From Allocoleopsis franciscana PCC 7113 (GTDB taxonomy: Bacteria > Cyanobacteriota > Cyanobacteriia > Cyanobacteriales > Coleofasciculaceae), in the NCBI RefSeq assembly GCF_000317515.1, contig NC_019738.1, positions 4,304,001 to 4,368,000 of the forward strand: a stretch of 64,000 nt of DNA, written 5' to 3'. The notes below the pieces were generated by a model that saw only the letters and a list, made by a program, of their open reading frames with translations, was not told the DNA's origin and did not search any database. Shown piece by piece: positions 19,267-51,336 of the stretch (positions within the stretch are counted from its first letter, which is position 1; the number at the start of each line of letters is the position of its first letter). A program made the position numbers and the translations under genes.

Positions 19267-21225
19267 ATGCTGCCGAAGGAAGGTAGACAACGAGTCCAGA
19301 TTGAAGGAGTCTCGCCAGAAATTGATGGGGGTCGTTTTCCCATCAAACGAACAATCGGTGAAAAAATCCAGGTTGAAGCCGATATGTTTTGTGATGGACA
19401 CGATATGATCACAGGTGTGATTTTATACCGTCCAGAAACATCTCAACAGTGGCAGGAAGCACCACTATCTCCTTTGTTCAATGACCGATGGCAAGGAGAA
19501 TTTAGCGTTTCTGAGATAGGGAGTTATGTCTATACCATCATGGCTTGGGTAGACCATTTTAAGTCTTGGCGGCGAGACATTCTGAAAAAGATTGACGCGG
19601 TACAGGTTGCACCCGTCGATTGGCTGATTGGCGCTCAATTGATTGAGGAAACGAGTCAGCGAGCCTCAGGTGATGATGCCGAACAATTGCAGACTTGGTC
19701 GAATGCTCTGCGTTCCCATGCCAACGCGAACAATGGCATCCTTGAGGACAAAATCGTGTCACCGCACTTGGCTTTCCTCATGGACAAGTATCCTGACCGA
19801 ACATTAGCCTCCACTTACGAAAAACTGCTCAAAGTTACCGTTGACCGAGAAAAAGCCCGCTTCAGCACTTGGTACGAACTATTTCCCCGTTCCTGTGGTG
19901 CACCGGGAGAACATGGTACCTTCGCCGACTGTATCAACCGTCTTCCCTACATTGCCGATTTGGGCTTTGATGTCCTCTACCTACCGCCCATTCACCCGAT
20001 TGGTGTCACCTTTCGCAAAGGGAAAAACAACACCGTTGTCGCCGAACCTGGAGATGTGGGAGTGCCTTGGGGCATTGGTGCTCCAGAGGGAGGGCACAAA
20101 GCGATTCACACCCCACTCGGTACCCTAGAAGACTTCCGAAAATTAGTCAGTAAAGCGGCGGAGTATGGCATTGAGATAGCCTTAGACCTCGCTTACCAGT
20201 GTTCCCCCGACCATCCATACGCGCGAGAGAATCCCCAATGGTTTAAGCGTAGACCCGATGGGACAATTCAACATGCAGAAAATCCACCCAAAAAGTATCA
20301 AGATATTTACCCCATAGACTTTGAAACCGAAGACTGGCAAAACCTGTGGGAAGAGTTAAAAAGTATTGTGCTGTTTTGGATTGACCAAGGGGTAAAAATC
20401 TTCCGCGTGGATAATCCCCACACCAAAGCGTTTCCATTTTGGGAGTGGATGATTGGAGAAGTTAAACAAGCTTATCCCGATGTGCTCTTCCTGGCAGAAG
20501 CCTTTACCCGTCCTAAAGTAATGTCTCGCCTCGCCAAGATGGGCTTTAGCCAGTCCTATACTTATTTCACTTGGCGCAATAATAAGTGGGAATTGACCGA
20601 GTACATGAAGGAACTCACCCAAAGTGAGGTACGCGAGTTCTTTCGACCCAACTTTTGGCCGAATACGCCGGATATTCTCCATGCATTTCTCCAACACGGC
20701 GGACGACCGGCTTTTATTCTGCGGTTAGTTCTCGCCGGAACCTTAACCGCCAATTATGGTATTTATGGGCCAGCCTTTGATGTTTGTGAAAACCGACCGA
20801 TTCGAGAAGGCAGCGAAGAATACTTAGATTCGGAAAAATATCAAATCCGGGAATGGGACTTGAATAGCCCTTACACCATCAAAGATTACATTGCACGGGT
20901 GAATCGCAGCCGTCGAGAACATCCAGCTTTGCAGAGTAACAATAGTATCCGCTTCCATCACATTGATAACGAGGAGATTATTTGTTACACCAAACAAACT
21001 GAAGATTTGAAAGATGTGATGCTGATGGTGGTAAATCTCAATCCCTACCATACCCAATCCGGCTGGATTCATTTACCCTTAGAGTCATTAGGAATCAAAC
21101 CCGATCAACCCTACCAAGTTCATGATTTGCTCAATAATGCCCAATACACTTGGGAGGGTGGTTCTAACTATGTTGAACTCAATCCCCATATCACTCCAGC
21201 TCATCTTTTTTGGATTCAACAGTAG
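19267..21225 (+). CDS. glgE: Alpha-1,4-glucan:maltose-1-phosphate maltosyltransferase
   Basis: A 652-residue GH13 subfamily 3 enzyme that extends alpha-1,4-glucan by transferring maltosyl units from alpha-maltose 1-phosphate. The N-terminal region (residues 1-200) is the DUF3416-type beta domain plus helical linker (YELFPRSCGAPGEHGTF). The catalytic barrel starts at LPYIADLGFDVLYLPPIHPIG. The nucleophile is D382 in FRVDNPHTK and the acid/base is E411 in LAEAF; their spacing of 29 equals that in Streptomyces GlgE. The GKNN and NPQWFKRRPDGTI motifs are typical. It shares the locus with treS-maltokinase and glgB, which make its donor and branch its product. Confidence 0.95.
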   Translation: MLPKEGRQRVQIEGVSPEIDGGRFPIKRTIGEKIQVEADMFCDGHDMITGVILYRPETSQQWQEAPLSPLFNDRWQGEFSVSEIGSYVYTIMAWVDHFKSWRRDILKKIDAVQVAPVDWLIGAQLIEETSQRASGDDAEQLQTWSNALRSHANANNGILEDKIVSPHLAFLMDKYPDRTLASTYEKLLKVTVDREKARFSTWYELFPRSCGAPGEHGTFADCINRLPYIADLGFDVLYLPPIHPIGVTFRKGKNNTVVAEPGDVGVPWGIGAPEGGHKAIHTPLGTLEDFRKLVSKAAEYGIEIALDLAYQCSPDHPYARENPQWFKRRPDGTIQHAENPPKKYQDIYPIDFETEDWQNLWEELKSIVLFWIDQGVKIFRVDNPHTKAFPFWEWMIGEVKQAYPDVLFLAEAFTRPKVMSRLAKMGFSQSYTYFTWRNNKWELTEYMKELTQSEVREFFRPNFWPNTPDILHAFLQHGGRPAFILRLVLAGTLTANYGIYGPAFDVCENRPIREGSEEYLDSEKYQIREWDLNSPYTIKDYIARVNRSRREHPALQSNNSIRFHHIDNEEIICYTKQTEDLKDVMLMVVNLNPYHTQSGWIHLPLESLGIKPDQPYQVHDLLNNAQYTWEGGSNYVELNPHITPAHLFWIQQ

Positions 21226-21645
21226 CCGTGTGAATTGATGGAAATCAACAGGACTGGCTAAAGCCATCAGGAGTATCCCGTCTTTGCCGACAGAGGAAAC
21301 TCCATTCGACGCCTCCCCTGAATCAGGGGAGGAAATCTTGTCACATTTATATTGGTCTGGGTTGATTAATCTTGGTTTTCTGTGCAGCGATGTACTGTGG
21401 AAGAGAATCGGTAATCATAATATAGCGACCCATTACCGATTACCCATTAATGTCCTTTATTGTTTTCATAGCCAATATTAGACTGGCTATATCTCACTAA
21501 AGGAATATATCTGATCATTGAGAGTTAGATATATTTTTTTGAGTGTAGGTAAGTTCAAGGGCAGCTTTCGATTGATGGTTGCTCCCTGAACTTAGCTATT
21601 GCAACATATCCCTGAATCTAAAACCTAAAGTCTAAAAACTATTTC
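21226..21645. other. glgE-treS spacer with hairpin and terminator
   Basis: A 420-base spacer. It contains a perfect 9-bp hairpin cctcccctg (21312-21320) / caggggagg (21324-21332) without a T-tract, and further on an AT-rich terminator (separate entry). The 65-codon frame at 21284-21481 overlaps the hairpin and does not look like a gene. Confidence 0.5.
21504..21540 (+). terminator. Probable terminator between glgE and treS
   Basis: Inverted repeat aatatatct (21504-21512) / agatatatt (21527-21535) with a 14-base loop, running into seven T. The stem is AT-rich, so efficiency is uncertain. If it works, treS-glgB has its own promoter. Confidence 0.5.
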
Positions 21646-24600
21646 ATGCAAACTGATCACTCGATATTGAAAGACGATCCCCTGTGGTTTAAGAATGCCA
21701 TCATTTACGAGGTGCCTGTTCGTGCCTTTGCTGATAGCAATGGTGATGGCATTGGTGACTTTCGGGGACTGACAGAAAAACTGGATTACTTACAAGATTT
21801 AGGCGTCACGGCACTCTGGGTACTCCCATTTTTTCCATCCCCCCTACGGGATGATGGGTACGATATTGCCGATTACACCAGTGTCAACCCCATCTATGGC
21901 ACATTAGACGATTTCAAAGAATTTTTGGATGCGGCTCATCAACGTGGCATTCGCGTCATTATCGAGTTAATTATCAACCATACCTCCGACCAACATCCCT
22001 GGTTTCAGCGGGCACGTCGGGCACCCAAAGACAGTGTAGAACGGGATTTTTACGTCTGGAGCGATACTCCTGAAAAGTACCAAGAAGCGCGAATTATTTT
22101 CCAGGATTTTGAAACCTCGAACTGGGCTTGGGACCCCATCGCCAAAGCTTACTACTGGCATCGCTTTTACTCGCATCAGCCGGATTTAAACTACGACAAT
22201 CCTGCCGTGCGCCAAGCCGTCTTTGAGGTTTTGGATTTTTGGTTAGAAATGGGTGTGGATGGGCTACGCATGGATGCGGTGCCTTATCTGTATGAGCGAG
22301 AAGGAACGAACTGCGAGAACCTGCCAGAAACCCATGCTTTCCTGAAGCAGATGCGTAAGCATGTAGACGAAAAGTTCCCCAATCGGATGCTGCTGGCGGA
22401 GGCCAATCAATGGCCTGAGGATGCGGTGCAATATTATGGGGCTGGGGATGAATGCCACATGAACTTCCATTTCCCCCTGATGCCTCGTTTGTTCATGTCC
22501 CTACGGATGGAGGATAGTTTCCCCATTAGTGACATCCTCCAGCAAACCCCTGCGATTCCCGATAACTGTCAGTGGGGATTATTCCTGCGGAATCACGACG
22601 AACTGACACTGGAAATGGTCAGTGATGAAGACCGGGATTACATGTATCGGGTTTATGCACAAGACCCGGAAACAAGACTTAACTTAGGCATTCGTCGTCG
22701 CTTGGCTCCCTTGTTGGGGAATGATCGCCGCCAGATTGAATTGCTCAATAGTCTGTTGCTCTCTCTCCCCGGCACCCCTGTACTTTATTACGGGGATGAA
22801 ATTGGCATGGGCGATAACATTTATGTCGGCGATCGCAATGGTGTTCGCACGCCGATGCAGTGGAGTTCGGATCGGAATGCGGGTTTTAGTCGCGCCAATC
22901 CCCATAAGCTGTATTTACCCGTGATCGTGGAGTCGGAATATCACTATGAGGCGCTGAACGTAGAAGCGCAACGGGGGAACCCAAACTCCCTGTGGTATTG
23001 GATGAAACGCCTAATTGCCACCCGTAAGCGGTTCCAAGCCTTAGGCAAAGGCAGCTTTGAATTCTTGCACCCAGAAAACCGGAAAGTACTCGCCTTCACG
23101 CGCACCTATCAAGACGAACACATCTTGGTGATAGCGAATTTATCCCGCTTTGTTCAGACGGTGGAATTAGACCTATCACCCTTCAAGGGTACGGTGCCGG
23201 TGGAGATTTTTGGTCGAACCGAGTTCCCACCAGTGGGAGAGTCGCCCTACTTCCTCAGCGTGAGTCCTTACTCGTTTTACTGGTTTACGCTCAAGCTTCA
23301 ACCCAGTTCACTACAATCCTCTAAACCTCAATCCACATTGCCGACTTTGGTGGCTAATGGCAAGTGGCAGAGTGTTTTTTCTCAACTCCAGTCGAAAGCG
23401 ACGTTGGAATCTACCCTGCCCGATTATCTATACACCTGTCGTTGGTTTGGTGGCAAAGCCCGGACGGTGCAATCTGCCAATATCACCGAGATGATTCCGG
23501 TGTCCTACAAGGACATGGAGGCTCAGATGGTGTGGTTACGTGTGGATTATATCCAGGGCGACCCAGAAACGTACCTGTTGCTACTCGCTTATGCCGAAGG
23601 TGAGCAAGGAATGCATCTTTTGGCAGAAAAGCCTCAATCAATTGTGGCTTACTTGCAAATACCAGGAAACGAGGAAACTGGGGTGCTATTCGATGCCGTT
23701 GCAGATAAGAACTTTTTAATCTTCCCCTTGGAGGCGATCGCTCACCATCAACGTTACAAAGGGATGGCAGGGGAATTGGTCACCATGTCTACCGATCTAT
23801 TCCCCCAACTCTACAAAGATGGCTCTAACATTGACCCTTCCCTAATTAAGGGTGAGCAAAGTAATACCTCGATTATTTATGGCGTTAGCGAAGCGGGACG
23901 CGAAAGCGTCCCTCGCTTCATCTTGAAACTGTTCCGCAAAGTGGAGGAAGGCATCAACCCGGATTTGGAAATTGGGCGCTTCCTCACCGAAAAGAAACTC
24001 TTGGAACACTTTGCTTCAATTGCTGGGGCTTTAGAGTACCGCCGTCCCCGCGCTGAAACCATGACGGTGGGAATCTTGCAAGAGTTTATCCTCGATACCC
24101 GCAGTAGCTGGGAGTATACCCTGGATAGCTTGCGTACCTACTTCGAGCATGTTTCAATCCAGCAGGCGGAGATTACCGAGGTGCCGGTTCCTTCCGGTTC
24201 TCTCTTAGATTTGCAGGCAAGCGAAATTCCGGAATTGGCGTCCCTCACCATCGGTTCTTATCTCGCTAGCGCTCAACTTTTGGGGCAGCGTACCGCTGAA
24301 CTGCATATTGCTTTGGCGTCGAATACCGATGATCCCGACTTTACGCCAGAACCCTTTTCGTCCTTTTATCAGCGTTCCATCTACCAGTACGCCCGTAACC
24401 TCACCGGACAAGTGCTGCTGTTGTTGAAAAATCGCCTGAAACAACTCCCACCCAACACCCAAAGGTTAGCCCAGGCTGTCCTCAACGCGAGTGATCAGAT
24501 TATGGGGCGCTTCCAGTTAGTCCTGGATCAAAAAATTACGGCAATGCGAACCCGGACTCATGGAGACTACCATCTGGGGCAAGTTTTGTACACGGGTAAA

Positions 24601-25056
24601 GACTTCATCATTATTGACTTTGAGGGAGAACCGGCGCGGAGTTTAGGTGAACGGCGGATGAAGCGATCGCCTTTACGAGATGTCGCTGGGATGCTGCAAT
24701 CGTTTAACTACGCGGTTACCCAAGCACTCCGCAATGAAGTCGAAAGCGGGATGATTCGCCCTGAAAATTTGCCGTTAATGGAGCAATGGGCGCAGTTTTG
24801 GTTTTGCTGGGTGAGTTCAGCTTTTCTGAAGAGTTATGTGGAGGTTGCCAGTCAGGATTCTTTCTTACCCAAATCAAGAGCAGAGTTGGAAGTACTCCTG
24901 GATAGCTATCTGTTGGAAAAAGTAATTTACGAATTAGGTTACGAACTCAACAATCGCCCAGATTGGGTAGAAATCCCTCTACAACGACTGCTCCAGTTGC
25001 AAGAACTCACAACATCCGGAAAATACAGTCAATCTGAAGCTTTGAAGGAATCATGA
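21646..25056 (+). CDS. treS: Trehalose synthase fused to maltokinase
   Basis: An 1136-residue two-enzyme fusion. Residues 1-550 are the GH13 trehalose synthase, which interconverts trehalose and maltose. Its start [25 protein letters not shown] is typical, with nucleophile D210 ([16 protein letters not shown]), acid/base E252 (LLAEANQWP) and D318 (RNHDEL). From about 575 follows a maltokinase (Mak/Pep2) that makes maltose 1-phosphate with [16 protein letters not shown] at the start, catalytic [11 protein letters not shown] (D974) and metal-binding IIIDFEGEP (D991). An in-frame palindromic insertion adds about ten residues (747-756) inside the kinase lobe. The stop overlaps glgB by four bases (ATGA), so the two are translationally coupled. 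Product feeds GlgE. Confidence 0.95.
23884..23915 (+). repeat. Palindromic REP-like element inside treS
   Basis: The core gggacgc (23895-23901) gaaa gcgtccc (23906-23912 region) is a 7-bp perfect stem with a GAAA loop, flanked by imperfect gcgaagc / gctcgc-type arms. It is in frame and encodes [10 protein letters not shown]. The surrounding protein reads IIYG....[11 protein letters not shown], which joins smoothly without the insert. A similar cgtcccgcttcgcgg stretch lies in the intergenic region near 49100. Confidence 0.75.
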
Positions 25057-26996
25057 CTTATCAATTATCAGTCAATCAAACTCAACCGCAAGTGACCGAC
25101 GGTTATGTCAGCTTGCTAACGGAGGATGACCTTTATCTGTTTAATGAAGGGTCACACTTCCACCTTTATGAAAAATTAGGCTCTCACCCCGTCGTGGTCA
25201 ATGGCGAAAGGGGAACCTATTTTGCCGTGTGGGCACCCAATGCGACTGAGGTATTTGTTAAAGGGGATTTCAACGGGTGGCAGGATAATGGTCACCGCCT
25301 ATCTCTGAAAGGAAACTCCGGGATTTGGGAAGGCTTTATTCCTGGAATGACCAAAGGTAGCCTCTACAAGTACCACATTGTCAACCACAATAGTGGGTAC
25401 GCGGTAGATAAAGCCGATCCCTTTGCCAATTCTCAAGAAGTGCCGCCGAGAACCGGTTCAGTGGTTTGGGATACGGAATACACTTGGCATGACCAAGAGT
25501 GGATGGAAAAGCGCGATCGCATACAAGCCCTCGACGCCCCCATGTCCATCTACGAGGTACACTTAGGCTCTTGGATGCGAGTGCCGGAAGAGGGAAATCG
25601 CTACCTCACCTACCGAGAACTGGCCTCAAAACTGGCTGAGTATATCAAGCAAATGGGATTCACCCATGTTGAATTGATGCCGATTACCGAGCATCCTTTC
25701 TATGGGTCTTGGGGTTATCAAACAACGGGTTATTTTGCTCCAACCAGCCGCTATGGTAGTCCCCAAGACTTCATGTATATGGTGGATTACCTGCATCAGC
25801 AAGGCATTGGTGTGATTTTAGATTGGGTGCCGTCTCATTTCCCCACCGATCAGCATGGACTGAACTATTTTGATGGGACAAACCTCTATGAACATGCTGA
25901 CCCCCGCCAAGGCTTCCATCCCGACTGGCAGAGTAGCATTTTTAACTATGGTCGCCATGAAGTCCGCAGTTTTTTGATTAGCAGTGCCTTTTTCTGGCTC
26001 GACAAGTGCCATATTGATGGACTACGGGTGGATGCCGTCGCCTCGATGCTGTATTTGGACTACTCCCGCAAAGAAGGAGAGTGGATTCCCAATCAATACG
26101 GCGGCAGGGAAAATTTTGAGGCGATCGAGTTTCTACGCCGCTTTAATGAAGCGGTTTACAAGCACTTCCCCGGTATTCAAACCATTGCCGAAGAGTCTAC
26201 CTCTTGGCCGATGGTTGCCCGTCCCCTGTATGTGGGGGGTCTAGGGTTTGGACTGAAATGGGACATGGGTTGGATGCATGACACCCTCAGCTATATGTCC
26301 CAAGAACCGATCCACCGGAAGTACCATCACAATAAACTCACCTTCCGGATGCTTTACGCCTTTAACGAGAACTTCGCCCTACCCCTGTCTCATGATGAAG
26401 TGGTGCATGGTAAGGGTTCGCTGATTGGCAAAATGCCGGGAGATTACTGGCAGAAATTTGCCAATTTACGCTTGCTTTTTGGCTACATGTATGCTCAAGC
26501 GGCGAAGAAGCTGTTGTTTATGGGTGGGGAAATTGGTCAGTGGTCGGAATGGAACCATGATCAAAGCTTAGACTGGAATCTTTTAGAGAATCCCATGCAC
26601 GGGGGTTTGCAAAAGTGGGTGGCTGACTTAAACCACACTTATCGCACTGAACCCGCCCTGCATGAATTGGATTTTGACTGGCAAGGGTTTGACTGGATTG
26701 ATTGTAATGACACAGAGCAAAGTGTGATTAGTTTGGTTCGCAAGGGTAAGTCTGCCGAAGATGTGGTGTTAGCCGTTTGTAACTTTACCCCTGTACCCCG
26801 CTACAACTACCGCATCGGTGTTCCTGCTGAAGGATTCTGGCAGGAGTTACTCAACAGCGATGCCGGGGACTATGGTGGCAGTGGCATGGGTAATATGGGG
26901 GGCAAACAAGCAGAGGCCATTTCTCAACATGGTCAGCCCTACTCGGTGGATCTGACCTTACCCCCGTTGGCGATCGCTTTTTTCAAACTTTGTTAA
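25053..26996 (+). CDS. glgB: 1,4-alpha-glucan branching enzyme
   Basis: A 647-residue GH13 enzyme that cuts alpha-1,4 chains and rejoins them in alpha-1,6 linkage. It has the CBM48 domain ([21 protein letters not shown], about residue 57-80) and then the barrel with nucleophile D327 ([15 protein letters not shown]), acid/base E380 (IAEES) and D448 ([13 protein letters not shown]). It is the short form without the extra N1 module found in E. coli. The start ATG overlaps the treS stop. A convergent terminator follows. Working with glgE it would produce branched glucan. Confidence 0.96.
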
Positions 26997-27018
26997 AGGC
27001 GGCTTCTTCCTGAAAATA

Positions 27019-27051
27019 TCCCCCATTATCGTCGATATAATGGGGGATTTT
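27019..27051. terminator. Convergent terminator between glgB and treY
   Basis: An 11-bp stem tcccccattat (27019-27029) / ataatggggga (27037-27047) with a 7-base loop, with a short T-run on the plus side and A/T-rich sequence on the other. It is placed between convergent genes. Confidence 0.8.
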
Positions 27052-27093
27052 AAATTTATGAGGGTTCTACACCGAAATCACTGCATTGTGACT

Positions 27094-29883
27094 CTAGCTT
27101 TTCAGTAACGCTACAGGAAAGTGTTGCAGCGCCTTGCCAATGGACACAATGCCATCTTCAGAAAACGCCTGCAAAGAAATAGTATCTGTCCAGGATTTCG
27201 GCATTCCTTGAGGTAACTCAATGCGGGTATCCTGCCATACCGATTCCCCTAGGGGGAGTGCACCCGGTTCGATCAAGCTTGTCAGGAAGCGAGGTGCGAT
27301 CGCAATCGCTGTCGTTTCACCATGCCGTCTGGCAAATGCCACAATATGATCCTTGAACGTTCCCGTCACGTTCAGAGGCAGATAATCTCCCTTCTGGAAA
27401 ACGGTTAAATTCTCTTTTCTGGCCTGAAGAGCTCGGTACGTTAGGAACAGCTTAATTCGACCATCTTCCTGATTCGACAATAATTCCTCTATTAGCTTCA
27501 GACTATCGGTTTGTAATTTCTGTTTAATCTCCTGCAAACAAGAAATTCGCTGCTGGTAATCAACCGGACGACGGTTATCCGGGTCTACCATACTTAAATC
27601 CCAGAATTCTGTTCCCTGATAGGTATCCGGTACACCGGGCGCTGTATATTTCAACAATACCTGTGAAAGTGAGTTAAAAATTCCATAACCAGCAACCCAC
27701 TTTTGGAAAGGAAGAAACTCCTTCATAAATTCATTCGAGTCAGAAGGCTCTAAAACTCTCTCCACAAAGGCCAGAAATTCCTCTTCATAAGCACTATCAG
27801 GGCGTAACCAAGCTGTATGCAGTTTAGCTTCTCTGACCGACTTGAGCATGTAGTCTTTAATCCGTCCAATAAACGAAGCATTTTCACTTTCATCAAACGG
27901 ATAAGAACCCACTAAAGTTTGATAAAAGAAGTATTCATCATTAGGAACAGGAACAGCTCTCCCCCTCACCTCATTTTTCTTAGAGCGATTGAGGTGAATC
28001 CAAGTTATCACCTGTTTTTCCCATTCATCGGGAATTTCTGAAAGCACATTCAATCTTGCTCGAACATCCTCACCACGTTTGGTGTCATGGGTTGCCGTAG
28101 CATTCATCTTATGAGGCCAAGCGGCGCTTTCTTTTTGATTGGCTTGATGAAACTCGTCAATTGTAACGCCAAATTTCCCAGGATTGCCTCCCACTTCATT
28201 CAAGGCAAGATGTCGGTTATACACATAAAATAAGGTATCCTCAATCCCTTTCGCCATTAGAGGGCCAGTTAATTGTTGGAACCTCATGATGAAGTGAAGC
28301 CTCAAGCCCTTTTGTTCTTCGGTTAACCCTTGCTGCCAATCCAACAAGAGCAATCTTTCGATAAAGTTTAGTTCATTCAAAAGCAGGGGAATCCGTCCTC
28401 TGGCTTCTTCGATCGCTTCTTCGATGTAGATGCGATCGTCTTCACTTAACCCATCGCCATTGACGTAGGTACGGTAAACGGGGAAAAGGCACAGGACTTC
28501 TGAAAGCGTTCTTTTCAGACCATTCATGGTAAAGTCAATTCCCAATCGGGATTGACCTGCAATTCTTTTCAGGATTTGAGCCAAATTATCGACATCGCCC
28601 GCCAAGTTCTTCTCGACAATTAGGTTTTTCTTATCAAAAAATAGCTGTTCGTAATTGGTTTGGGCGCTATTTAGCTGAGAGTAGATATCGGTAAAGTGTT
28701 TCTCACTCTCCGTTTTGCAGAAAAGCCCATTGACGTAGTTCAAGAAATCATAACCACTGGTTCCCTGAATCGGCCAAACTTTAGGTAACTCTTCTTTAAG
28801 TTCCAAAATCTTTTCCACCGTGATATAGACATCCCCTGTTTTTTCCCGAAGTCGCTTCAGATATTCGGTTGGGTCATACAGTCCATCAATGTGGTCTATT
28901 CTTAATCCAGTTACTTTCCCTTGCTCAACAAGCTGACCTACCAAATCATGAGTTTTATGAAAAACTTTGAGTTCTTGAACTCTCATAGAAATCAGTTCAT
29001 TAACGGTAAAAAATCTGCGATAATTGATTTCTTCCGCACCGACTTTCCAGAACGAGAGACGATAGAACTGTTCTTGTAGCAAACTATCCAGAAGATTGAA
29101 ACTTTCGGGGTTGCCCTTTTCTCCATTAAACAGCTTTATATTACTATCAACAAAGTCTTTAATTTCAGGGTTTTGGTTGTAGAGTTCCCACAAAAGTACT
29201 TTGACAAAGGCTATCTGACCATATCGTTCCTTGCCTTTGGTTTCGTAGGGTACACTTTTGATCAGATGGAGAATACCCAGTAATTTGAGAAAATCGGGAT
29301 GCCGCTTTCCTATTTCTCTTGCTACCTGTCCCAAATTCTGGCTGATGAACCGACCATAAGATTCAATACGGACAGGCAATTTTAAAGCGTAGTAATTGAC
29401 GCTTAATTCGCTCTCTTCATAGTTGAGCTGAATCTCACCATTGTGCAAAGCTTCTCCATAAAAATTCCCCATCATTGGGGCAAGTATCCGTCCCTTAATG
29501 TCTTCATAAGTGTGTTCCCATTCAATGTCGAAGTAGCCAGAAAAATCAGAATCAATCCCATTTTCTAGAACATCCATTAGCCAAGCGTTTTGGCTATGAT
29601 AAGCCATGTGGTTGGGAACAATATCCTGCACCCACCCCATGTCATGATTCTTGATTTCACTCACCAGTGCTTCAAAATCCTCTGCTGTTCCCAGTTCAGG
29701 ATTCAGTTGAGTGGGGTCAACCACATCATACCCGTGGGTACTGCCTGGTGTAGCTTTAAAGATTGGGGAAGCATAAAGGTCAGAAATTCCTAAGTCAGCG
29801 AGATAATCAAGAATATTTTTTGCCGCTTCAAATTTAAATACTGATTGAAATTGAATTCGGTAAGTGGCTGTGGGAATCCGCAT
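27094..29883 (-). CDS. treY: Maltooligosyltrehalose synthase
   Basis: A 929-residue GH13 enzyme that isomerises the reducing-end glucose of a maltodextrin to an alpha,alpha-1,1 linkage, so that TreZ can release trehalose. The N-terminus RIPTATYRIQF and YASPIFKATPGSTHGYDVVDPTQLNPELG are diagnostic. The region after IVPNHMAYHSQNAWLMDVLENG, the nucleophile motif TGLRIDHIDGLYDP, the acid/base region VEKILELKEELP and TATHDTKRGEDVRAR are all present. Length is typical. It is transcribed towards glgB and away from the glycosyltransferase gene; the treZ copies lie 2 kb further right on the same strand. Confidence 0.97.
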   Translation of the reverse strand: MRIPTATYRIQFQSVFKFEAAKNILDYLADLGISDLYASPIFKATPGSTHGYDVVDPTQLNPELGTAEDFEALVSEIKNHDMGWVQDIVPNHMAYHSQNAWLMDVLENGIDSDFSGYFDIEWEHTYEDIKGRILAPMMGNFYGEALHNGEIQLNYEESELSVNYYALKLPVRIESYGRFISQNLGQVAREIGKRHPDFLKLLGILHLIKSVPYETKGKERYGQIAFVKVLLWELYNQNPEIKDFVDSNIKLFNGEKGNPESFNLLDSLLQEQFYRLSFWKVGAEEINYRRFFTVNELISMRVQELKVFHKTHDLVGQLVEQGKVTGLRIDHIDGLYDPTEYLKRLREKTGDVYITVEKILELKEELPKVWPIQGTSGYDFLNYVNGLFCKTESEKHFTDIYSQLNSAQTNYEQLFFDKKNLIVEKNLAGDVDNLAQILKRIAGQSRLGIDFTMNGLKRTLSEVLCLFPVYRTYVNGDGLSEDDRIYIEEAIEEARGRIPLLLNELNFIERLLLLDWQQGLTEEQKGLRLHFIMRFQQLTGPLMAKGIEDTLFYVYNRHLALNEVGGNPGKFGVTIDEFHQANQKESAAWPHKMNATATHDTKRGEDVRARLNVLSEIPDEWEKQVITWIHLNRSKKNEVRGRAVPVPNDEYFFYQTLVGSYPFDESENASFIGRIKDYMLKSVREAKLHTAWLRPDSAYEEEFLAFVERVLEPSDSNEFMKEFLPFQKWVAGYGIFNSLSQVLLKYTAPGVPDTYQGTEFWDLSMVDPDNRRPVDYQQRISCLQEIKQKLQTDSLKLIEELLSNQEDGRIKLFLTYRALQARKENLTVFQKGDYLPLNVTGTFKDHIVAFARRHGETTAIAIAPRFLTSLIEPGALPLGESVWQDTRIELPQGMPKSWTDTISLQAFSEDGIVSIGKALQHFPVALLKS

Positions 29884-30369
29884 GGTTTAATAATGGCTCC
29901 TGATTATTTTTTTGAGGCTTCTGATGCTAGTGTGTGTCGCTTCAATCTGTTAAATATATTTTATATTCAAACGAGACACTGAGTACAGAGCATAGAAGAG
30001 CAAGGGAGAGAGATACTGATTTTTGAGTTTACCTTACTAGATATTATTGAGTATTTTTAAAGAGCATCCTTTATATTTTTGTATGGAAATCAGGCAATGT
30101 TTAAAATATATTTTATATACAGTGTTTTATTCCGAAACGGGTGTCCAGACTTGCAATTTTAAATAATTATCTTTCAATTTATTTATTGGCACCCATTTTT
30201 GTTAAGCTTTAAAAGCTTGAAAAGACGCTGCGACCACAATATTACTGCTATTTGAATTTTCTCTTTTTGTAAAAAATAAAACATCTTTCTAGGGGCAGAG
30301 AGTGTTTAGATAAATGGCAAGTAAAACTGATTAATTGAGATAGAGCAATTTACCAATAACATCTGTTTT
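29884..30369. promoter_or_regulatory. Divergent AT-rich control region of treY and the glycosyltransferase
   Basis: A 486-base AT-rich stretch with no gene. The 15-base sequence aaatatattttatat occurs twice in direct orientation, at 29952-29966 and 30104-30118. These lie about 70 and 220 bases upstream of the treY start and could be operators or UP-type elements. Not otherwise identified. Confidence 0.5.
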
Positions 30370-31650
30370 ATGTTGACTAAGGCCAGAGAATACGAGATTG
30401 TCAGCTATCGGCAATCGGTGCAACAAAAAGGGATGCTGCTCGTCCTACCCGTTCCCCTTCGGGCTAAAGGGAAGCAAATATTCCTAGAGTCCCAGGCTTG
30501 CAACGGCTTAGAGCAGTGGGCCAATAATTTTGGGTCAGTGGTCGTCGCTGCACCTCTATTGCCCGAAGCCCTAGCCACAGAAGGAAAAACCATGACTTGG
30601 CGGGACACAGCCACCTTAGCCGGACCCCATCGCTTTGAATTTGTGCCACTGCCTTGGGCTTATTCCCTCCCCAAGTTCCTTTCTAACTATCCTTCGGTAC
30701 GAGCCTCTCTGGGCGAATTAATCTCACGCTGCCGTTATCTGCAATTTGCGATTGGCGGTTTGTTTGGAGATTGGGCAGCCGTTGCCGCCTTGGAAGCTCA
30801 TAAACAGGGTAGACCCTATAGCATTCATACGGATCGCGTTGAACATGAGGTCATGCTGCGATCAAGACAGGGAGCAACACTCAAAACCCGACTAAAGTCG
30901 AGAGCCATGGCACCGCTGATCGCGAGTTACCACAAACAGATTATTAAGAATTGTGCCCTAGGTCTGTGGCATGGTCAAGATTGCTATTCCGCTTACAGTC
31001 CCTTTTGCCAGAACAGCCATCTAATTCATGACATCCACACAAAACCTTCAGATAGCATCGGCAATTTAGAGTTGTTTAAAAAAGCTCGGTGTGCGAAGAG
31101 TGATGAGACAATTCGCATTTGTTATGCCGGACGTATTGATCCGATGAAAGCGCCCTTGGACTGGGTAAAAGCTGTAGGCAGGGCGAGGGATTTGGGTGTG
31201 AATCTGCACGCCACTTGGATGGGTGATGGGTCTTTGATGACGGAAATGAAAGCCATGATTGCAGAGATGGGCTTAAGTTCTGTAATCGAACTGACAGGAT
31301 TTGAGTCAGATCGAAAAAAAGTGTTTAAGAAAATAAGCGAATCTCACCTCATGTTGTTTACTCATGTCACCCCAGAATCGCCACGCTGCCTGATTGAGTC
31401 CCTCGTTCGCGGCACCCCGATTATTGGCTATCACAGTGATTACGCTGATGACTTGGTGAACAACCACGGTGGAGGAATGTTCGTGCCTGTGGAAAATTGG
31501 GAACAACTCGGCAATCTGATCGCTCAATTGTCGAACGACCGAGAACGTTTGTCAACACTAATCCAAGAGGCTGGCAAGAATGGAACCCGCTTCAATGATC
31601 AAGCGGTCTTCCACGAACGTAGTGAGCTGATCAAAAAGCATCTGGCCTGA
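30370..31650 (+). CDS. Glycosyltransferase, GT4-like (GT-B fold)
   Basis: A 426-residue protein with a C-terminal GT4-type domain: IRICYAGRIDPMKAPLDWVKAV at about 250, WMGDGSLMTEM, then the nucleotide-sugar binding region SHLMLFTHVTPESPRCLIESLVRGTPIIGY with the ExxxxE-like spacing (PRCLIE). The N-terminal half lacks clear family signatures. Membrane segments are absent, so it is cytoplasmic or peripheral. It lies between treY and treZ but on the opposite strand. The acceptor is unknown; exopolysaccharide or a glycosylated solute is possible from context only. Confidence 0.8.
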   Translation: MLTKAREYEIVSYRQSVQQKGMLLVLPVPLRAKGKQIFLESQACNGLEQWANNFGSVVVAAPLLPEALATEGKTMTWRDTATLAGPHRFEFVPLPWAYSLPKFLSNYPSVRASLGELISRCRYLQFAIGGLFGDWAAVAALEAHKQGRPYSIHTDRVEHEVMLRSRQGATLKTRLKSRAMAPLIASYHKQIIKNCALGLWHGQDCYSAYSPFCQNSHLIHDIHTKPSDSIGNLELFKKARCAKSDETIRICYAGRIDPMKAPLDWVKAVGRARDLGVNLHATWMGDGSLMTEMKAMIAEMGLSSVIELTGFESDRKKVFKKISESHLMLFTHVTPESPRCLIESLVRGTPIIGYHSDYADDLVNNHGGGMFVPVENWEQLGNLIAQLSNDRERLSTLIQEAGKNGTRFNDQAVFHERSELIKKHLA

Positions 31651-31807
31651 GGCATAACAGATGAGTATAAACTATGACATTATCCCATGTGCCTTGGCTA
31701 GACTCCTGCTAGGGTGGGGCATATACTGATACTGATATTTTCTCTTCTCAATATCATCCCCAGTGAAGCCCCGCTCCCCGAACATCTAATACCCATTCTA
31801 TTTTCAT

Positions 31808-33640
31808 TCATGTTGCTAGAGTTTCTAGCTCATAGAGGGCAAAACTTTGTGGACGAATTGTTACTTCCTGCTCCCGGATTAGTTTTTCTGGCAAGGTAGA
31901 GCCTGAACCCATCCATTGCTCATCAGAAGAATCCAAAATTTTTCTCCAAATTCCACCGGGAGAGGGTTTACAAGTAACCTTATTCTTATTGAAGTTCATG
32001 ATGCAGAAGATTTGGTCGCCACTACTTCCACGCCGAAGGAATAGGAGTTTATCTTCTTCAACGGCAGAGGCTTCTAGATTTTCCTTATCGAGTTGTTTCA
32101 GGGCAGGCAAGGTGCGACGTAATTGAATTAAATGCTGATAAAATTCTCGCATTACTTTGTGTTTACCTTCTTGCCGTTTATCCCAGTTTAACTGACATTG
32201 TTGAAACGTCTCAGTACTGAAGGGATCGATGAATTCTCCTTCTATATGAAAAGCGGCAAAATCTTTCTTTCTCCCCTCTCTCACTACCTCAACTAATTTC
32301 TGATCGGTATGACTCACGAAGTAGAGAAAGGGTGCATCTTCTGCATACTCTTCACCCATAAATATTAAAGGAATATTGGGAGCAAGCATGAGGACACCAG
32401 CAGCAAGTTTTAACCCTTTAAACGATACTAGATGAGTTAATCGTTCACCTAGCGCTCGATTGCCAACTTGGTCATGGTTTTGGGTAAAAACGACAAATTG
32501 ATGACCGGGAATAGCGCTTGAATCACTGCCATGAAATTTTTTGCGGAATGGTGAGTACTGCCCGGAGTAGACAAACCCTTGTTTAAAAGCCTTTGCCATC
32601 TGTTCGCAGGTGCCGTAATCTTCGTAATACCCAGACTCTTCACCTGTTAGCAGGCTATGCAGACAATGGTGGAAAGCATCGTTCCACTGAGCATCTATAC
32701 CATAGCCGCCTGATTCAATTGGACGAATTATCTTGGTATCGCTTAAATCATTTTCTGCTGTTAGATAAAATTTCTGACCTTGTTTTTTGGAAAGGGCATC
32801 AACGTTTTCTGCTAGTTCTTGTAGGAAATGTTTGACACCAATATCGTATAGATGGTCGCTAGCATCTAAGCGCAGGGCATCAATGTGATAGTTGTTAAAC
32901 CAATACAGGGCGTTTTCAATAAAGTAATTACGCACACCGTAACTGTATTCACCATCAAAGTTAAGGGCATTACCCCAAGCTGTTTGGTAGTGGTTTGTGA
33001 AATACGGTGCATAATCACTGAAGTAGTTTCCTTCTGGACCAAAGTGATTGTAAATCACGTCGAGAATGATTGATATTCCCTGTTGATGCGCTGCATCGAC
33101 AAGCTTTTTCAATCCTTCAGAACCCCCATAGGAATGCTGCGGTGCGAAGGGAAAAACGCCATCATAGCCCCAGTTTCGGTTGCCGGGAAATTGTCCAATT
33201 GGCATTAGTTCGATCGCATTCACTCCAAATTCGTGCAACTCTCTTAACCGAGGAATAATCGCTTCAAAGGTTCCTTCCGGCGTGAACGTGCCAACGTGCA
33301 GTTCATAGATAATCATTTCCTCTAAAGGAATGCCTGACCAATCGGCATCATTCCAGTTCATCTGAGTATGATCAACCACAGAGGAGGGGCCATGTACGTC
33401 CTTGGGTTGAGAGTGGGAAGCGGGATCGGGTCTATCTGCCTCTGCTCCGAGTTTGTAGCAATAAAGTGTTCCTGGCTCAATATTTTCAGCTAGCACTTTA
33501 AAATACCCCCATTCATCTTTTTGCATGGGAAGCAAACGCTGAACAGGGGATACTATTTGTACAGCTACTTCTTCGTGAGCGGGTGCCCAAACCGTAAATT
33601 CACAACGACCGTCACCAAGATAATCAGCGCCGATTTTCAT
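31808..33640 (-). CDS. treZ: Malto-oligosyltrehalose trehalohydrolase, divergent copy
   Basis: A GH13 enzyme of 610 residues (from ATG 33640; the frame extends four codons to GTG 33652). TreZ hydrolyses maltooligosyltrehalose to free trehalose. The N-terminal CBM48-like domain (CEFTVWAPAHEEVAVQI) and the barrel motifs (YELHVGTFTPEGTF, NAIELMPIGQFPGNRNWGYDG, FTQNHDQVGNRALGERL) are present. In the nucleophile motif this copy reads ALRLDASDHLYD, where the second copy has the usual ALRLDAIHAIYD; the His three residues after the Asp (D259) is replaced by Asp. ATG 33640 lines up with the start of the second copy. The 3' end is almost identical to the second copy. Confidence 0.9.
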   Translation of the reverse strand: MKIGADYLGDGRCEFTVWAPAHEEVAVQIVSPVQRLLPMQKDEWGYFKVLAENIEPGTLYCYKLGAEADRPDPASHSQPKDVHGPSSVVDHTQMNWNDADWSGIPLEEMIIYELHVGTFTPEGTFEAIIPRLRELHEFGVNAIELMPIGQFPGNRNWGYDGVFPFAPQHSYGGSEGLKKLVDAAHQQGISIILDVIYNHFGPEGNYFSDYAPYFTNHYQTAWGNALNFDGEYSYGVRNYFIENALYWFNNYHIDALRLDASDHLYDIGVKHFLQELAENVDALSKKQGQKFYLTAENDLSDTKIIRPIESGGYGIDAQWNDAFHHCLHSLLTGEESGYYEDYGTCEQMAKAFKQGFVYSGQYSPFRKKFHGSDSSAIPGHQFVVFTQNHDQVGNRALGERLTHLVSFKGLKLAAGVLMLAPNIPLIFMGEEYAEDAPFLYFVSHTDQKLVEVVREGRKKDFAAFHIEGEFIDPFSTETFQQCQLNWDKRQEGKHKVMREFYQHLIQLRRTLPALKQLDKENLEASAVEEDKLLFLRRGSSGDQIFCIMNFNKNKVTCKPSPGGIWRKILDSSDEQWMGSGSTLPEKLIREQEVTIRPQSFALYELETLAT

Positions 33641-33652
33641 CTTTAATTCCAC

Positions 33653-33925
33653 GCACTGGAAAAAGGGAATTCGGTCTTGATTTTGTCCCTTTTCAACCGA
33701 GCTCGCATCCTTCTATTGGAATAAAGTTGAGGAGCAAGATTTTCTCCTTACTTCCTTTCCACCACAAGATTATCTACTAGACTACGGAAAAACTAAAGTT
33801 TTGAAACCCGCGTAGGCGGGTTTTGTTTGTGTAGCTGCGGTTTTAACCGCCTTTTCTATCGTTAATTTGACACCAATGCAGCACGCCTGCCTCAGACTTT
33901 GATGAAAAGGATTTTTTCAAGAGGT
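33653..33925. other. treZ-treZ spacer with two hairpins
   Basis: A 273-base spacer between the two treZ genes. Stem aacccgc (33805-33811) / gcgggtt (33816-33822) is followed on the plus strand by ttttgttt, and a second stem gcggtt (33837-33842) / aaccgc (33845-33850) follows. They may terminate or attenuate between the genes, but the T-run favours the plus strand while the genes are on the minus strand. Confidence 0.45.
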
Positions 33926-35755
33926 TTATTCTGCTAATGTTTCTAGCTGGTAGAGTACAAAACTTTGGGGAGCAATTGTTACTTCCTGCTCCCGGATTAG
34001 TTTTTCTGGCAAGGTAGAGCCTGAACCCATCCATTGCTCATCAGAAGAATCCAAAATTTTTCGCCAGATTCCACCGGTAGAGGGTTTACAAGTAACCTCA
34101 TTCTTATTGAAGTTCATGATGCAAAAGATTTGGTCGCCACTACTTCCACGCCGGAGAAATAGAAGCTGCTGTTCTTCAACAGAAGAGGCTTCTAAATTTT
34201 GCTTCTCTAAAGTTTTTAGTGCTGGAACTGTACGGCGCAATTGTATTAAATGTTGATAAAGTTCTAACAGCACTTTGTGTTTACCTTCTTGGCGTTTTTC
34301 CCATTTCAGCGTAGACTGAGCAAAGGTATCAACACTGAAGGGATCGATGAATTCTCCTTCGGCATGAAAATCTGCAAACTCTCTTTTCCTTCCCTGTCTG
34401 ACTGCCTCAACTAAATCCTGATCGGTATGACTCACAAAGTAGAGGAAAGGCGAATCTTCCCCATACTCTTCACCCATAAATAACATGGGAATGTAGGGAG
34501 AAAGAAGTAGAGCACCCGCCGCAAGTTTTAACGCATCAAACGATACTAGATGAGTTAAGCGTTCACCTAGCATACGATTACCAACTTGATCATGATTTTG
34601 AGTGCAAACGACAAATTGATGACCGGGGCGATCGCTCGCATCACTGCCGTGATATCTTCGACGATGAGGAGCATATTTCCAGTCGTAAATAAAGCTATCT
34701 TTATAGACTTTAGCTAGCTGTTCAACGCTGCCAAAATCTTGGTAATATCCCCTCTTTTCGCCTGTGAGCAATACATGAAGGACGTGATGAAAATCGTCAC
34801 TCCATTGGGCATCCATCCCATGTCCACCCAACTCTTTTTCGCGGATGACGCGAACATCGTTTAAATCGCTTTCAGCAATTAAATAAAGTTTTCTGCCTCC
34901 AGATTGGGAAAAAGCTTCAACCTTCTCTGCCATTTCTTGCAAGACATGTTTCGCCCCCAAGTCATAAATAGCGTGGATGGCATCTAATCGCAAAGCATCA
35001 AAGTGATAATTCTGGAACCAATACAGGGCATTTTCAATAAAATAATTACGCACCCCGTCACTGTACTTATCATCAAAATTCATCGCCATGCCCCAAGGCG
35101 TTTTGTACATTTCCGTAAAATAAGGGCCATATAAACTGTAATAGGCTCCTTCAGGGCCAAAGTGGTTGTAAACGACATCGAGAATGACGGATAAGCCTTC
35201 GCGGTGAGCGGCATCCACGAGTTTTTTCAAGCTTTCAGGGCCACCGTAAGAATGCTGCACAGCGTAAGTATAGGCACCATCGTAGCCCCAGTTGCGATCG
35301 CCCGGAAATTGAGCAACGGGCATAATCTCAATTGCATTAACTCCAAACTCGCGCAACTCCCTTAATCGGGAAATCATCGCTTCAAATGTGCCTTCTGGGG
35401 TGAACGTCCCGACGTGCAATTCATAGATAATCATTTCCTCTAAGGGAATACCCGACCAACTCGCGTCAGTCCAATTCATCTGACTATGATCGACTACCTG
35501 AGAAGGCCCATGTACATCCTTGGGTTGATAATGAGAAGCGGGATCGGGTCGATCATCCCCTGCTATTTTGTAGAAATAAAGGGTTCCTGGCTCAATGCCT
35601 TCAGCTAATGTTTTAAAGTATCCCTGTTCATCCTTTTGCATCGGAACGAGGCGGTTTGCAGGAGACACAATTTGCACAGCTACCTCATCATGAGCAGGTG
35701 CCCAAACTGTAAACTCACAACGACCTTCACCTAAATAATTAGAGCCTATTTTCAC
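33926..35755 (-). CDS. treZ: Malto-oligosyltrehalose trehalohydrolase, canonical copy
   Basis: A 609-residue TreZ starting at GTG 35755, with AGGAA upstream. Domain order matches the other copy. The active-site motifs are canonical: nucleophile D258 in ALRLDAIHAIYD with His at +3, acid/base in LIAESDLND, and the third Asp in CTQNHDQVGNRMLGERL. With TreY it converts glucan chain ends to trehalose. It is most likely the functional housekeeping copy. The first treZ lies 273 bases downstream on the same strand, so the two probably arose by tandem duplication. Confidence 0.95.
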   Translation of the reverse strand: MKIGSNYLGEGRCEFTVWAPAHDEVAVQIVSPANRLVPMQKDEQGYFKTLAEGIEPGTLYFYKIAGDDRPDPASHYQPKDVHGPSQVVDHSQMNWTDASWSGIPLEEMIIYELHVGTFTPEGTFEAMISRLRELREFGVNAIEIMPVAQFPGDRNWGYDGAYTYAVQHSYGGPESLKKLVDAAHREGLSVILDVVYNHFGPEGAYYSLYGPYFTEMYKTPWGMAMNFDDKYSDGVRNYFIENALYWFQNYHFDALRLDAIHAIYDLGAKHVLQEMAEKVEAFSQSGGRKLYLIAESDLNDVRVIREKELGGHGMDAQWSDDFHHVLHVLLTGEKRGYYQDFGSVEQLAKVYKDSFIYDWKYAPHRRRYHGSDASDRPGHQFVVCTQNHDQVGNRMLGERLTHLVSFDALKLAAGALLLSPYIPMLFMGEEYGEDSPFLYFVSHTDQDLVEAVRQGRKREFADFHAEGEFIDPFSVDTFAQSTLKWEKRQEGKHKVLLELYQHLIQLRRTVPALKTLEKQNLEASSVEEQQLLFLRRGSSGDQIFCIMNFNKNEVTCKPSTGGIWRKILDSSDEQWMGSGSTLPEKLIREQEVTIAPQSFVLYQLETLAE

Positions 35756-46084: not shown

Positions 46085-46298
46085 TTATCCGTTGTCCTTT
46101 GTGCTTTGCTAATTGCTGTCCTGACTTATGAGTTGACCCCTAACCTTTGAAGGTTAGATACCCGTTGCCGTACCGTGAGCAGTACACGATAGCGTACATT
46201 TTCGATTGTTTAGTTAGCCAACTTTACTTCAAGCACCCTGATTGATTTGTCATCGATTCCTCCAAAATCCAAAATCAAAACTCCAAAATTAATACCTC

Positions 46299-48788: not shown

Positions 48789-48806
48789 GGTTCCTCCCTG
48801 TTGCAT

Positions 48807-49653: not shown

Positions 49654-51336
49654 TATATAGGGTTTGCTGTAAAAACCGGAAACCCTTAGCTATAAATAGT
49701 TTGAGCGGTCTTGAAAGTTGTTCAGCTCCCAGGAAATCTGGTAGAATCCCACAAAATCCTTGTACCAAGAGCAGGGAAAATGTACAGAAAAGCTTCCTCA
49801 AGCCCGACCCCACCGGAAAACTTTGAGCTGCCCTTTGAGGGAAAGTTATCACAAGATAACCGTTGGGTAATCATGGCAAATCTGATACCCTGGGATGAAT
49901 TTGAAGAGGAATACGCCAAAATTTTTTCTATTGATATGGGGGCACCTGCGCTGCCATTTCGGATGGCATTGGGTTCATTAATAATCAAAGAAAGATTAGG
50001 AATAAGCGATCGGGAAACAGTAGAACAAATAAAAGAAAACCCTTACTTACAATACTTTATAGGGAGAAAGCATTACAGCAACGAAGCCCCTTATGATGCC
50101 TCACTTTTGGTAAGATTTAGAGAAAGGATAAATGTTGATTTAGTAAATCAAATAAATCAAAGAATGGTAAAGAAGATTCAGGAAGAAACAGAGGAGGAAT
50201 CTAAAAAAAAAGCTCACTCTCAGAAAGGCAAGAAACAAGAGAAAGCCCGAATCAAGGGAAATTAATTCTGGATGCTACCTGTGCGCCAGGAGATATCAGC
50301 TATCCCAATGACTTGGGTCTATTAAATCAAGCCAGAGTCAAAACGGAAAAGATAATAGATACTCTCTATAAGCCCCTAAAAGGGAGACTAAAGAAAAAGC
50401 CAAAAACTTATAGAAACCTCGCTCGGAAAGATTACTTGAAAGTCGCCAAAAAACGGAGATCGTCAAGAAAAGAGAGAAGAAAAGCTATAAAAAAACAACT
50501 GAAATATATAAAAAGAAATTTATCACACATTGACCAGCTCCTTCAGACAGGAGAAGCACTTGAGGGTTTGAGCATCTCTCAATATAAGAGCTTGCTGGTG
50601 GTGGCGGAAGTTTACCGTCAACAGCAATGGATGTATGAGAATAAAGCCCAGAGAATTGACGACAGAATAGTCAGTTTAAGTCAGCCCCATATCCGTCCAA
50701 TTGTGAGAGGAAAAGCCGGAAAACCTGTAGAATTTGGAGCTAAACTAGCAGCAAGCGTCAGAGATGGATATGTCTTTTTAGACCGTATAAGCTGGGATAA
50801 CTTTAATGAAGCCGGAGACTTAAAAGCCCAAATAGAAGCATTTAAACAGCACACAGGAGTCTATCCCGAATCAGTACATGTAGATAGAATTTATCGAAAT
50901 CGCGAGAATCGAGCATTCTGTAAAGAAAGAGGGATTAGAATAAGTGGCCCCCCCTTAGGCAGACCTCCAGCTAATGTCAGCTCAGACAAAAAGAAACAAG
51001 CCTTAGACGACGAGAAGGTTCGCAATGCTATTGAAGGAAAATTTGGCATCTCAAAGCGAAGATTTAGCTTGAATCGCGTCATGGCTAAACTGCCTCATAC
51101 TTCTCAAACGGCTATTGCTATCACTTTTTTAGTCATGAATCTTTCCACCCTGCTACGGCAGTTTTTTTGTCTTTTTTTGTGCAATACACAACATCACGCC
51201 TTTTTTCTCGATAACTATTAATTCGGCTTATGCTTGTGGGAATTAACAACAACAAAAGCTCATTATTATTCCAGGATTAAATAACTGATTAATCCATCGG
51301 TTGTTTTTCGCCGACTTATTCAGCAAGCCCTATATA
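49654..51336 (+). mobile_element. IS5-like insertion sequence with TATATA direct repeats
   Basis: The element from 49660 to 51330 (1671 bp) is bounded by inverted ends: gggtttgctg (49660-49669) and, on the right, cagcaagccc (51321-51330), whose complement is gggcttgctg. The flanks are TATATA (49654-49659) and tatata (51331-51336), a possible 6-base target duplication, though the palindromic sequence makes this ambiguous. Inside is one transposase gene with a frameshift. The element lies between susA and map, in a repeat-rich spacer. Confidence 0.8.
49780..51221 (+). pseudogene. IS5-family transposase, split by a frameshift
   Basis: The first reading frame from ATG 49780 runs to a stop at 50263-50265 and carries a DUF772/InsH-type N-terminal region (LPFRMALGSLIIKERLGISDRETVEQ, IGRKHYSNEAPYDASLLVRFRERI). 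The protein continues in the -1 frame: GKLILDATCAPGDISYPNDLGLLNQARVK, LAASVRDGYVFLDRISWDNF (DDE region) and IEGKFGISKRRFSLNRVMAK near the C-terminus (DDE_Tnp_1). A run of nine A (50203-50211) could allow -1 slippage, and a lost A near 50259-50261 would explain the break equally well. The lysine-rich frame reads naturally up to that point, so a deletion is favoured. I treat it as a damaged copy. Confidence 0.75.

Follow-up and report, generated by a model that had tools for sequence, protein, structure and literature searches.

A probable GlgE pathway joined to TreY and TreZ in Allocoleopsis franciscana, and predicted maltokinase inactivation in cyanobacteria without GlgE

INTRODUCTION

Can one cyanobacterial locus carry carbon from glucan to trehalose and back again, and does the way back run through maltose 1-phosphate (M1P)? 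The question is raised by a 17-kb locus of Allocoleopsis franciscana PCC 7113, where genes for GlgE, a fused TreS-maltokinase and GlgB lie beside genes for TreY and two copies of TreZ. The locus occupies positions 19267-35755 of the window, by which we mean the whole 64,000-nucleotide stretch that was analysed (contig NC_019738.1, positions 4,304,001 to 4,368,000), in a genome of 7.97 Mb on nine contigs. We conclude that it very likely encodes a functional GlgE pathway connected to a trehalose branch of TreY and TreZ. We also think it likely that the maltokinase (Mak) half of cyanobacterial TreS-Mak proteins is intact only together with GlgE, and that in lineages without GlgE it has repeatedly become a pseudokinase, through different mutations, with its fold and the TreS activity preserved.

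In the proposed scheme, TreY would convert the ends of alpha-1,4-glucan chains into maltooligosyltrehalose, from which TreZ would then release trehalose. In the other direction, TreS would convert trehalose to maltose, Mak would use ATP to convert maltose to M1P, GlgE would transfer the maltosyl unit of M1P to glucan, and GlgB would branch the product. The balance between the two arms may serve stress or drying cycles.

RESULTS

Both directions are encoded with intact catalytic residues

Families were assigned by curated profile models with cut-offs (TIGR/NF) and by Pfam. The genes of the two arms are as follows.

19267..21225, plus strand: glgE; PF11896 (E 1e-56) and PF21702; best solved relative Streptomyces coelicolor GlgE1 (E 1.6e-189)
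21646..25056, plus strand: treS-mak fusion, 1136 amino acids (aa); TIGR02456 (922 bits) and TIGR02457 (432 bits), both above cut-off
25053..26996, plus strand: glgB, GH13 branching enzyme, 647 aa; NF003811, NF008967 and TIGR01515 above cut-off
27094..29883, minus strand: treY, maltooligosyltrehalose synthase, 929 aa; TIGR02401 (966 bits, cut-off 499)
31808..33652, minus strand: treZ copy 1, diverged tandem paralogue, 614 aa; TIGR02402 (721 bits)
33926..35755, minus strand: treZ copy 2, conventional copy, 609 aa; TIGR02402 (751 bits)

A preliminary description of this DNA had read these genes in the same way and had proposed that the two opposing directions, trehalose to branched glucan and glucan to trehalose, are both encoded here. 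Each gene is an uninterrupted open reading frame (ORF) and scores over its cut-off, which bears out both claims. Within the first arm, 420 bases separate glgE from treS-mak, and treS-mak overlaps glgB by 4 bases. The fusion protein consists of TreS (aa ~14-550) and maltokinase (aa ~590-1117), with matches to the maltokinase structures 4u94, 4o7o and 5jy7. In a congener (G464), the locus is the same gene for gene, including both treZ copies and a glycosyltransferase gene described below. Because all calls lie far above curated cut-offs and the congener has the same gene order, chance is no serious alternative.

The catalytic motifs of TreS, Mak, GlgB, TreY and TreZ are all found in the window proteins, those of GlgB, TreY and TreZ following established GH13 assignments. 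TreS and maltokinase thus have intact active sites, a branching enzyme gene lies beside glgE, and both enzymes of the TreY-TreZ branch carry their catalytic residues. In Mak, the functional residues S739, N740, D974, Q979, D991, K1092, Y1095 and Y1099 are all intact. Window GlgE has nucleophile D382, acid/base E411 and phosphate-site residues N339, K342, Y344 and N383; an alignment check found the M1P-binding N352, K355, Y357 and N395 and the catalytic D394 and E423 present. The roles of these residues come from Streptomyces and Mycobacterium structures (PMC4526890), and eight residues for donor-phosphate binding and catalysis are identical in the window protein, 27 cyanobacterial rows and 77 other rows of the alignment.

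Maltokinase residues are retained with GlgE and almost always changed without it

We now turn to the relatives, using surveys of 386 genomes of the phylum and 379 genomes of the order. In the phylum sample, TreY is found in 47/386 genomes, TreS-Mak in 26/386 and GlgE in 5/386, each nested in the former: no genome of this sample has GlgE without TreS-Mak, or TreS-Mak without TreY. The order sample has GlgE in 19/379 genomes and TreS-Mak in about 118/379. One genome that is 88% complete (G514) has GlgE with no TreS-Mak seen. TreS-Mak is therefore present in about 100 cyanobacteria without GlgE, an absence confirmed by tblastn for the first 21, with an occasional gap possible in draft genomes.

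Eight Mak residues were compared: S136 and N137 of the P-loop, the catalytic base D305, the Mg ligands Q310 and D322, and K413, Y416 and Y420 of the maltose site (PMC4306142). Mutants of N137 and D322 (N145 and D339N in Mycobacterium tuberculosis) lose activity entirely, S136 mutants lose most of it and K413, Y416 and Y420 mutants practically all; the roles of D305 and Q310 are assigned from structure (PMC4306142). All eight residues are intact in 20/20 GlgE-bearing cyanobacteria and, apart from one Y416F, in 49 GlgE-bearing genomes of other phyla. Among GlgE-less cyanobacteria, 94/96 have at least one of the eight changed, the sole intact proteins being a near-identical pair (G459/G492). Counted by genus, a changed residue occurs in 0/16 GlgE-bearing and 36/37 GlgE-less genera. 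The maltose site was added to complete the set after inspection of the first five residues, which alone are changed in 0/20 GlgE-bearing versus 74/96 GlgE-less genomes. Fisher values for such counts treat genomes as independent and are not to be read as probabilities.

The changes vary by lineage (D305N/A/K/Q; D322N/H; N137K/H/D/Y; S136D/K/T/R/G, and others), and some GlgE-less proteins carry D322N, the exact change shown to kill mycobacterial Mak. Nodularia spumigena CCY9414 (G284), for which TreS has been assigned to trehalose breakdown (PMC3610870), has D322H. The TreS half presents the opposite picture: its catalytic residues are the same throughout the 116 proteins, except in one fragment that lacks part of TreS, and at the GlgE-less loci (including L142, L143, L150-L153 and L192-L273) TreS is intact where Mak residues are changed. 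Changes at the active site are more frequent than at other invariant Mak columns (0.26 versus 0.14), a difference that is suggestive (p 0.07); our claim is the loss of essential Mak residues and does not extend to targeting of the active site. Predicting loss of activity from mutants of distant mycobacterial enzymes (PMC4306142), we conclude that most cyanobacterial 'TreS-maltokinases' are probably TreS-pseudokinases. The literature that we searched, in which coverage of subscription papers was partial, held no earlier report of a pseudokinase TreS-Mak.

Shared ancestry does not readily account for the association

The link between GlgE and an intact Mak could reflect kinship only, with close relatives inheriting both. 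We consider this improbable. GlgE-bearing and GlgE-less TreS-Mak proteins intermix in the tree, and a single GlgE-bearing clade is rejected (approximately unbiased (AU) test, p 9e-6). The 16 GlgE-bearing genera belong to several families and have kept every residue, whereas 36/37 of the GlgE-less genera have lost at least one, and different residues are lost in different lineages. Within a single genus, G332 (L159) bears GlgE and G177 (L144) lacks it; G177 has N137Y only, with the other seven residues intact, and so resembles a protein at an early stage of inactivation. Both traits need eight changes on the best tree. What kinship retains in its favour is the small number of independent contrasts: on the TreS-only tree, three fall on well-supported branches, a 3-0 result in the expected direction that is not significant alone, and eight are found on the best tree, where contrasts nearly always run in that direction.

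A separate observation concerns G429 (L192): its TreS falls with families f2, f11 and f13, apart from that of its GlgE-bearing congener G537, which suggests that the gene was replaced by transfer.

The altered kinase half is under purifying selection

All GlgE-less ORFs that were analysed span the full length, and none has an internal stop. For the Mak half, the ratio of nonsynonymous to synonymous substitution rates (dN/dS, omega) in close GlgE-less pairs is mostly 0.07-0.27, with two higher values at very low dS, compared with 0.08-0.15 in GlgE-bearing pairs; omega is 0.02-0.07 for TreS. The ATP-site lysine (K149) and the alpha-C glutamate are unchanged in all 116 proteins. The relatives thus combine a full-length Mak domain, changed functional residues and purifying selection. 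Because the ORFs are full length, dN/dS is low and these two residues are invariant, the Mak domain of GlgE-less cyanobacteria seems to be retained for some role other than catalysis. We would guess that this role is to hold TreS in an assembly, comparable to the TreS:Pep2 complex of mycobacteria (PMC6509496).

Maltose 1-phosphate as the expected intermediate

Since Mak residues are intact with GlgE and changed in almost all GlgE-less relatives, GlgE very probably consumes M1P in A. franciscana, and we infer that M1P is both made and used in this organism. The equivalent enzymes of Pseudomonas aeruginosa have been demonstrated biochemically and genetically, and M1P rises eight-fold when GlgE is absent (PMC8084333). 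M1P toxicity is described in M. tuberculosis (PMC4526890, PMC4663749), and Escherichia coli colonies with chlamydial TreS-Mak were not obtained, with M1P toxicity suspected (PMC7935935). By analogy, toxicity of M1P may be the cause of the Mak loss in cyanobacteria without GlgE.

Sources and exits of trehalose in the whole genome

The preliminary description also held that the locus was closed, with all enzymes of both directions within 17 kb. This goes too far. The window has no match to a debranching enzyme (TreX/GlgX-like); a GlgX-like ORF lies at C1:3633218, ~0.67 Mb from the locus. An inventory of the genome by family searches places two GlgA, a second GlgB (779 aa) and GlgX elsewhere. With the debranching enzyme and GlgA outside it, the locus does not hold a closed glucan-trehalose cycle, for which 'closed' was a loose term, and these distant genes tie it into ordinary glycogen metabolism. 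The same searches recognised neither OtsA nor a GH37 trehalase in the genome, so TreYZ is likely the trehalose source and TreS-Mak-GlgE a likely sink. Of the routes searched, only TreYZ was recognised as a way to make new trehalose. TreS-Mak-GlgE is a likely exit for trehalose, with a nearby GH65 protein as a possible second one, and we take the two arms to be the main source and a main sink, respectively.

Several of these results weigh against a pathway of the proposed kind. With two GlgA and a second GlgB in the genome, GlgE could contribute little to total glucan; the GH65 phosphorylase could be another sink for trehalose or maltose; the locus has no debranching enzyme; and our literature search yielded neither biochemical nor expression data on a cyanobacterial GlgE. 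The GlgE arm could accordingly be minor or vestigial, with bulk glucan made by GlgC-GlgA-GlgB and the GlgE cluster only disposing of excess trehalose or maltose. Beyond the two GlgA and the separate GlgB, the patchy distribution of GlgE, which needs several gains or losses, speaks for such an arrangement. We nevertheless regard it as rather unlikely, because the functional residues of GlgE and Mak are invariant in GlgE-bearing cyanobacteria and omega is low (TreS 0.02-0.07, Mak 0.08-0.15), which indicates that the GlgE arm is under selection. The objection concerns flux and not the existence of the arm.

Gene layout and a possible role in drying

The remaining features within and beside the locus are listed here.

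27018..27048, no strand assigned: terminator-like hairpin of 12 pairs, between convergent glgB and treY
30370..31650, plus strand: GT4-family glycosyltransferase; PF00534
43124..46084, minus strand: flanking GH65 phosphorylase-beta-phosphoglucomutase fusion, 986 aa; nearest solved relative kojibiose phosphorylase
46299..48806, minus strand: flanking sucrose synthase, 835 aa; TIGR02470 (1112 bits)

The hairpin has the most pairs of the listed sites, and such sites are no more numerous in the region than in shuffles. It bears on the idea, in line with the carbon switch put forward in the preliminary description, that the locus is mainly a trehalose buffer, with TreYZ expressed on drying and TreS-Mak-GlgE on rewetting. 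The two arms do lie on opposite strands with the hairpin between them, and the GlgE-bearing Kastovskya adunca ATA6, Microcoleus vaginatus WJT46 and AVDCRST_MAG92 apparently come from deserts or soil crusts, judged by their titles. In Anabaena, desiccation is cited as an inducer of trehalose genes (PMC3610870). GlgE-bearing Limnofasciculus baicalensis, however, is aquatic by name, and titles are weak ecology; we hold the drying buffer to be possible, at somewhat less than even chances.

The GT4 gene, which the preliminary description did not mention, separates treY from the treZ pair; it is kept in the congener (85%) and absent from the other loci compared. Upstream of the locus are cytochrome oxidase genes, and downstream are ilvC, an amidase gene, the GH65 fusion and sucrose synthase. 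With the last two (43124-48806), disaccharide genes reach well past the named locus. Transposase pieces (DUF772, DDE_Tnp_1_2) at 49711-51221 adjoin the sucrose synthase gene, and a protein with TIR-like and AAA_35 domains, possibly for signalling or defence, is encoded at 60433-62331.

Two treZ copies

The two TreZ proteins are 75% identical in amino acids. The last ~60 codons of the gene pair are 96% identical in DNA, versus 60-87% elsewhere, which suggests gene conversion at the 3' end. Copy 2 is the best match of most treZ genes from GlgE-bearing cyanobacteria. Copy 1 has a diverged catalytic region (DASDHLYD for DAIHAIYD) that retains the catalytic D/E/D, with omega of 0.12 against the congener and four changes at 112 near-invariant positions. 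We considered whether copy 1 is a pseudogene; the omega of 0.12 and the retained catalytic residues rule this out.

Related loci and the kinship of GlgE

The preliminary description called the gene set unusual, and proposed the genome survey given above. Within cyanobacteria the set is indeed rare (GlgE in 5/386 genomes of the phylum and 19/379 of the order), but it is common elsewhere, in Alphaproteobacteria and Bacteroidota, and P. aeruginosa has both routes (PMC8084333). All five gene types lie within ~30 kb in four cyanobacteria (G062, which is Kastovskya adunca, and G197, G408 and G397), while three Microcoleus-type genomes (G393, G421, G432) have GlgE-TreSMak-GlgB-TreZ with TreY not nearby. 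In two genomes (G066 and G334), TreY is in two pieces, one of the G066 pieces with an internal TGA. Outside the phylum, many Alphaproteobacteria carry TreY, TreZ or both no more than ~10 kb from GlgE-TreSMak(-GlgB), as do several Bacteroidota, Singulisphaera, Nitrococcus and a Thermoleophilia metagenome-assembled genome. In contrast to almost every other GlgE locus, most of those in Azospirillum (L057, L061-L063, L065 and others) have no TreS-Mak close to GlgE in the DNA retrieved.

Among the sequences compared, the nearest non-cyanobacterial GlgE proteins are those of Nitrococcus (61% identity) and Singulisphaera (58%). In a GlgE tree built without canonical actinobacterial GlgE, 11/12 cyanobacterial proteins form one clade (support 99), that of G332 falls outside, and the nearest groups are unresolved. 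These data do not suggest a recent import of the locus from Actinobacteria.

DISCUSSION

The locus shares GlgE, TreS, Mak and GlgB, together with their functional residues, with the GlgE pathway of mycobacteria and Streptomyces; it differs in that TreS and Mak are fused and that its host, a cyanobacterium, has GlgA-type glycogen genes as well. It shares the TreYZ branch with Anabaena sp. PCC 7120, whose trehalose cluster reportedly holds treY/treZ and a trehalase, is induced on desiccation and is not said to include GlgE; Anabaena uses trehalase, whereas the genome studied here shows no GH37 trehalase. P. aeruginosa is alike in both directions, in fused TreS/Pep2 and in lacking OtsAB, with the genes in two separate operons, glgE-treS/pep2-glgB and treYZ-glgA-malQ-glgX (PMC8084333); here there is one 17-kb locus without glgA, malQ and glgX, and with two treZ. 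The glgE-treSmak-glgB-(treZ)-(treY) clusters of Alphaproteobacteria and Bacteroidota have the same gene types within ~10-12 kb, in a different order and on different strands, and their GlgE proteins are 48-54% identical to that of the window.

One large survey described the GlgE pathway as 'dominantly restricted' to Actinobacteria (PMC6686919); with this locus, cyanobacteria join the organisms in which it is likely to operate. The locus is a rare cyanobacterial case of an already known pathway, and the loss of Mak residues along with GlgE in its relatives is the more interesting result. If the pseudokinase reading is true, these genomes would give natural evidence that M1P harms, or is of no use to, cells that lack GlgE, and would provide an evolutionary test of its toxicity. 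Most cyanobacterial 'maltokinases' would then be misannotated, with genome annotation overstating maltokinase in this phylum, and one would have to ask how TreS benefits from a dead kinase that is conserved. The association of GlgE with an active maltokinase would also allow a sequence-based prediction of which cyanobacteria make M1P.

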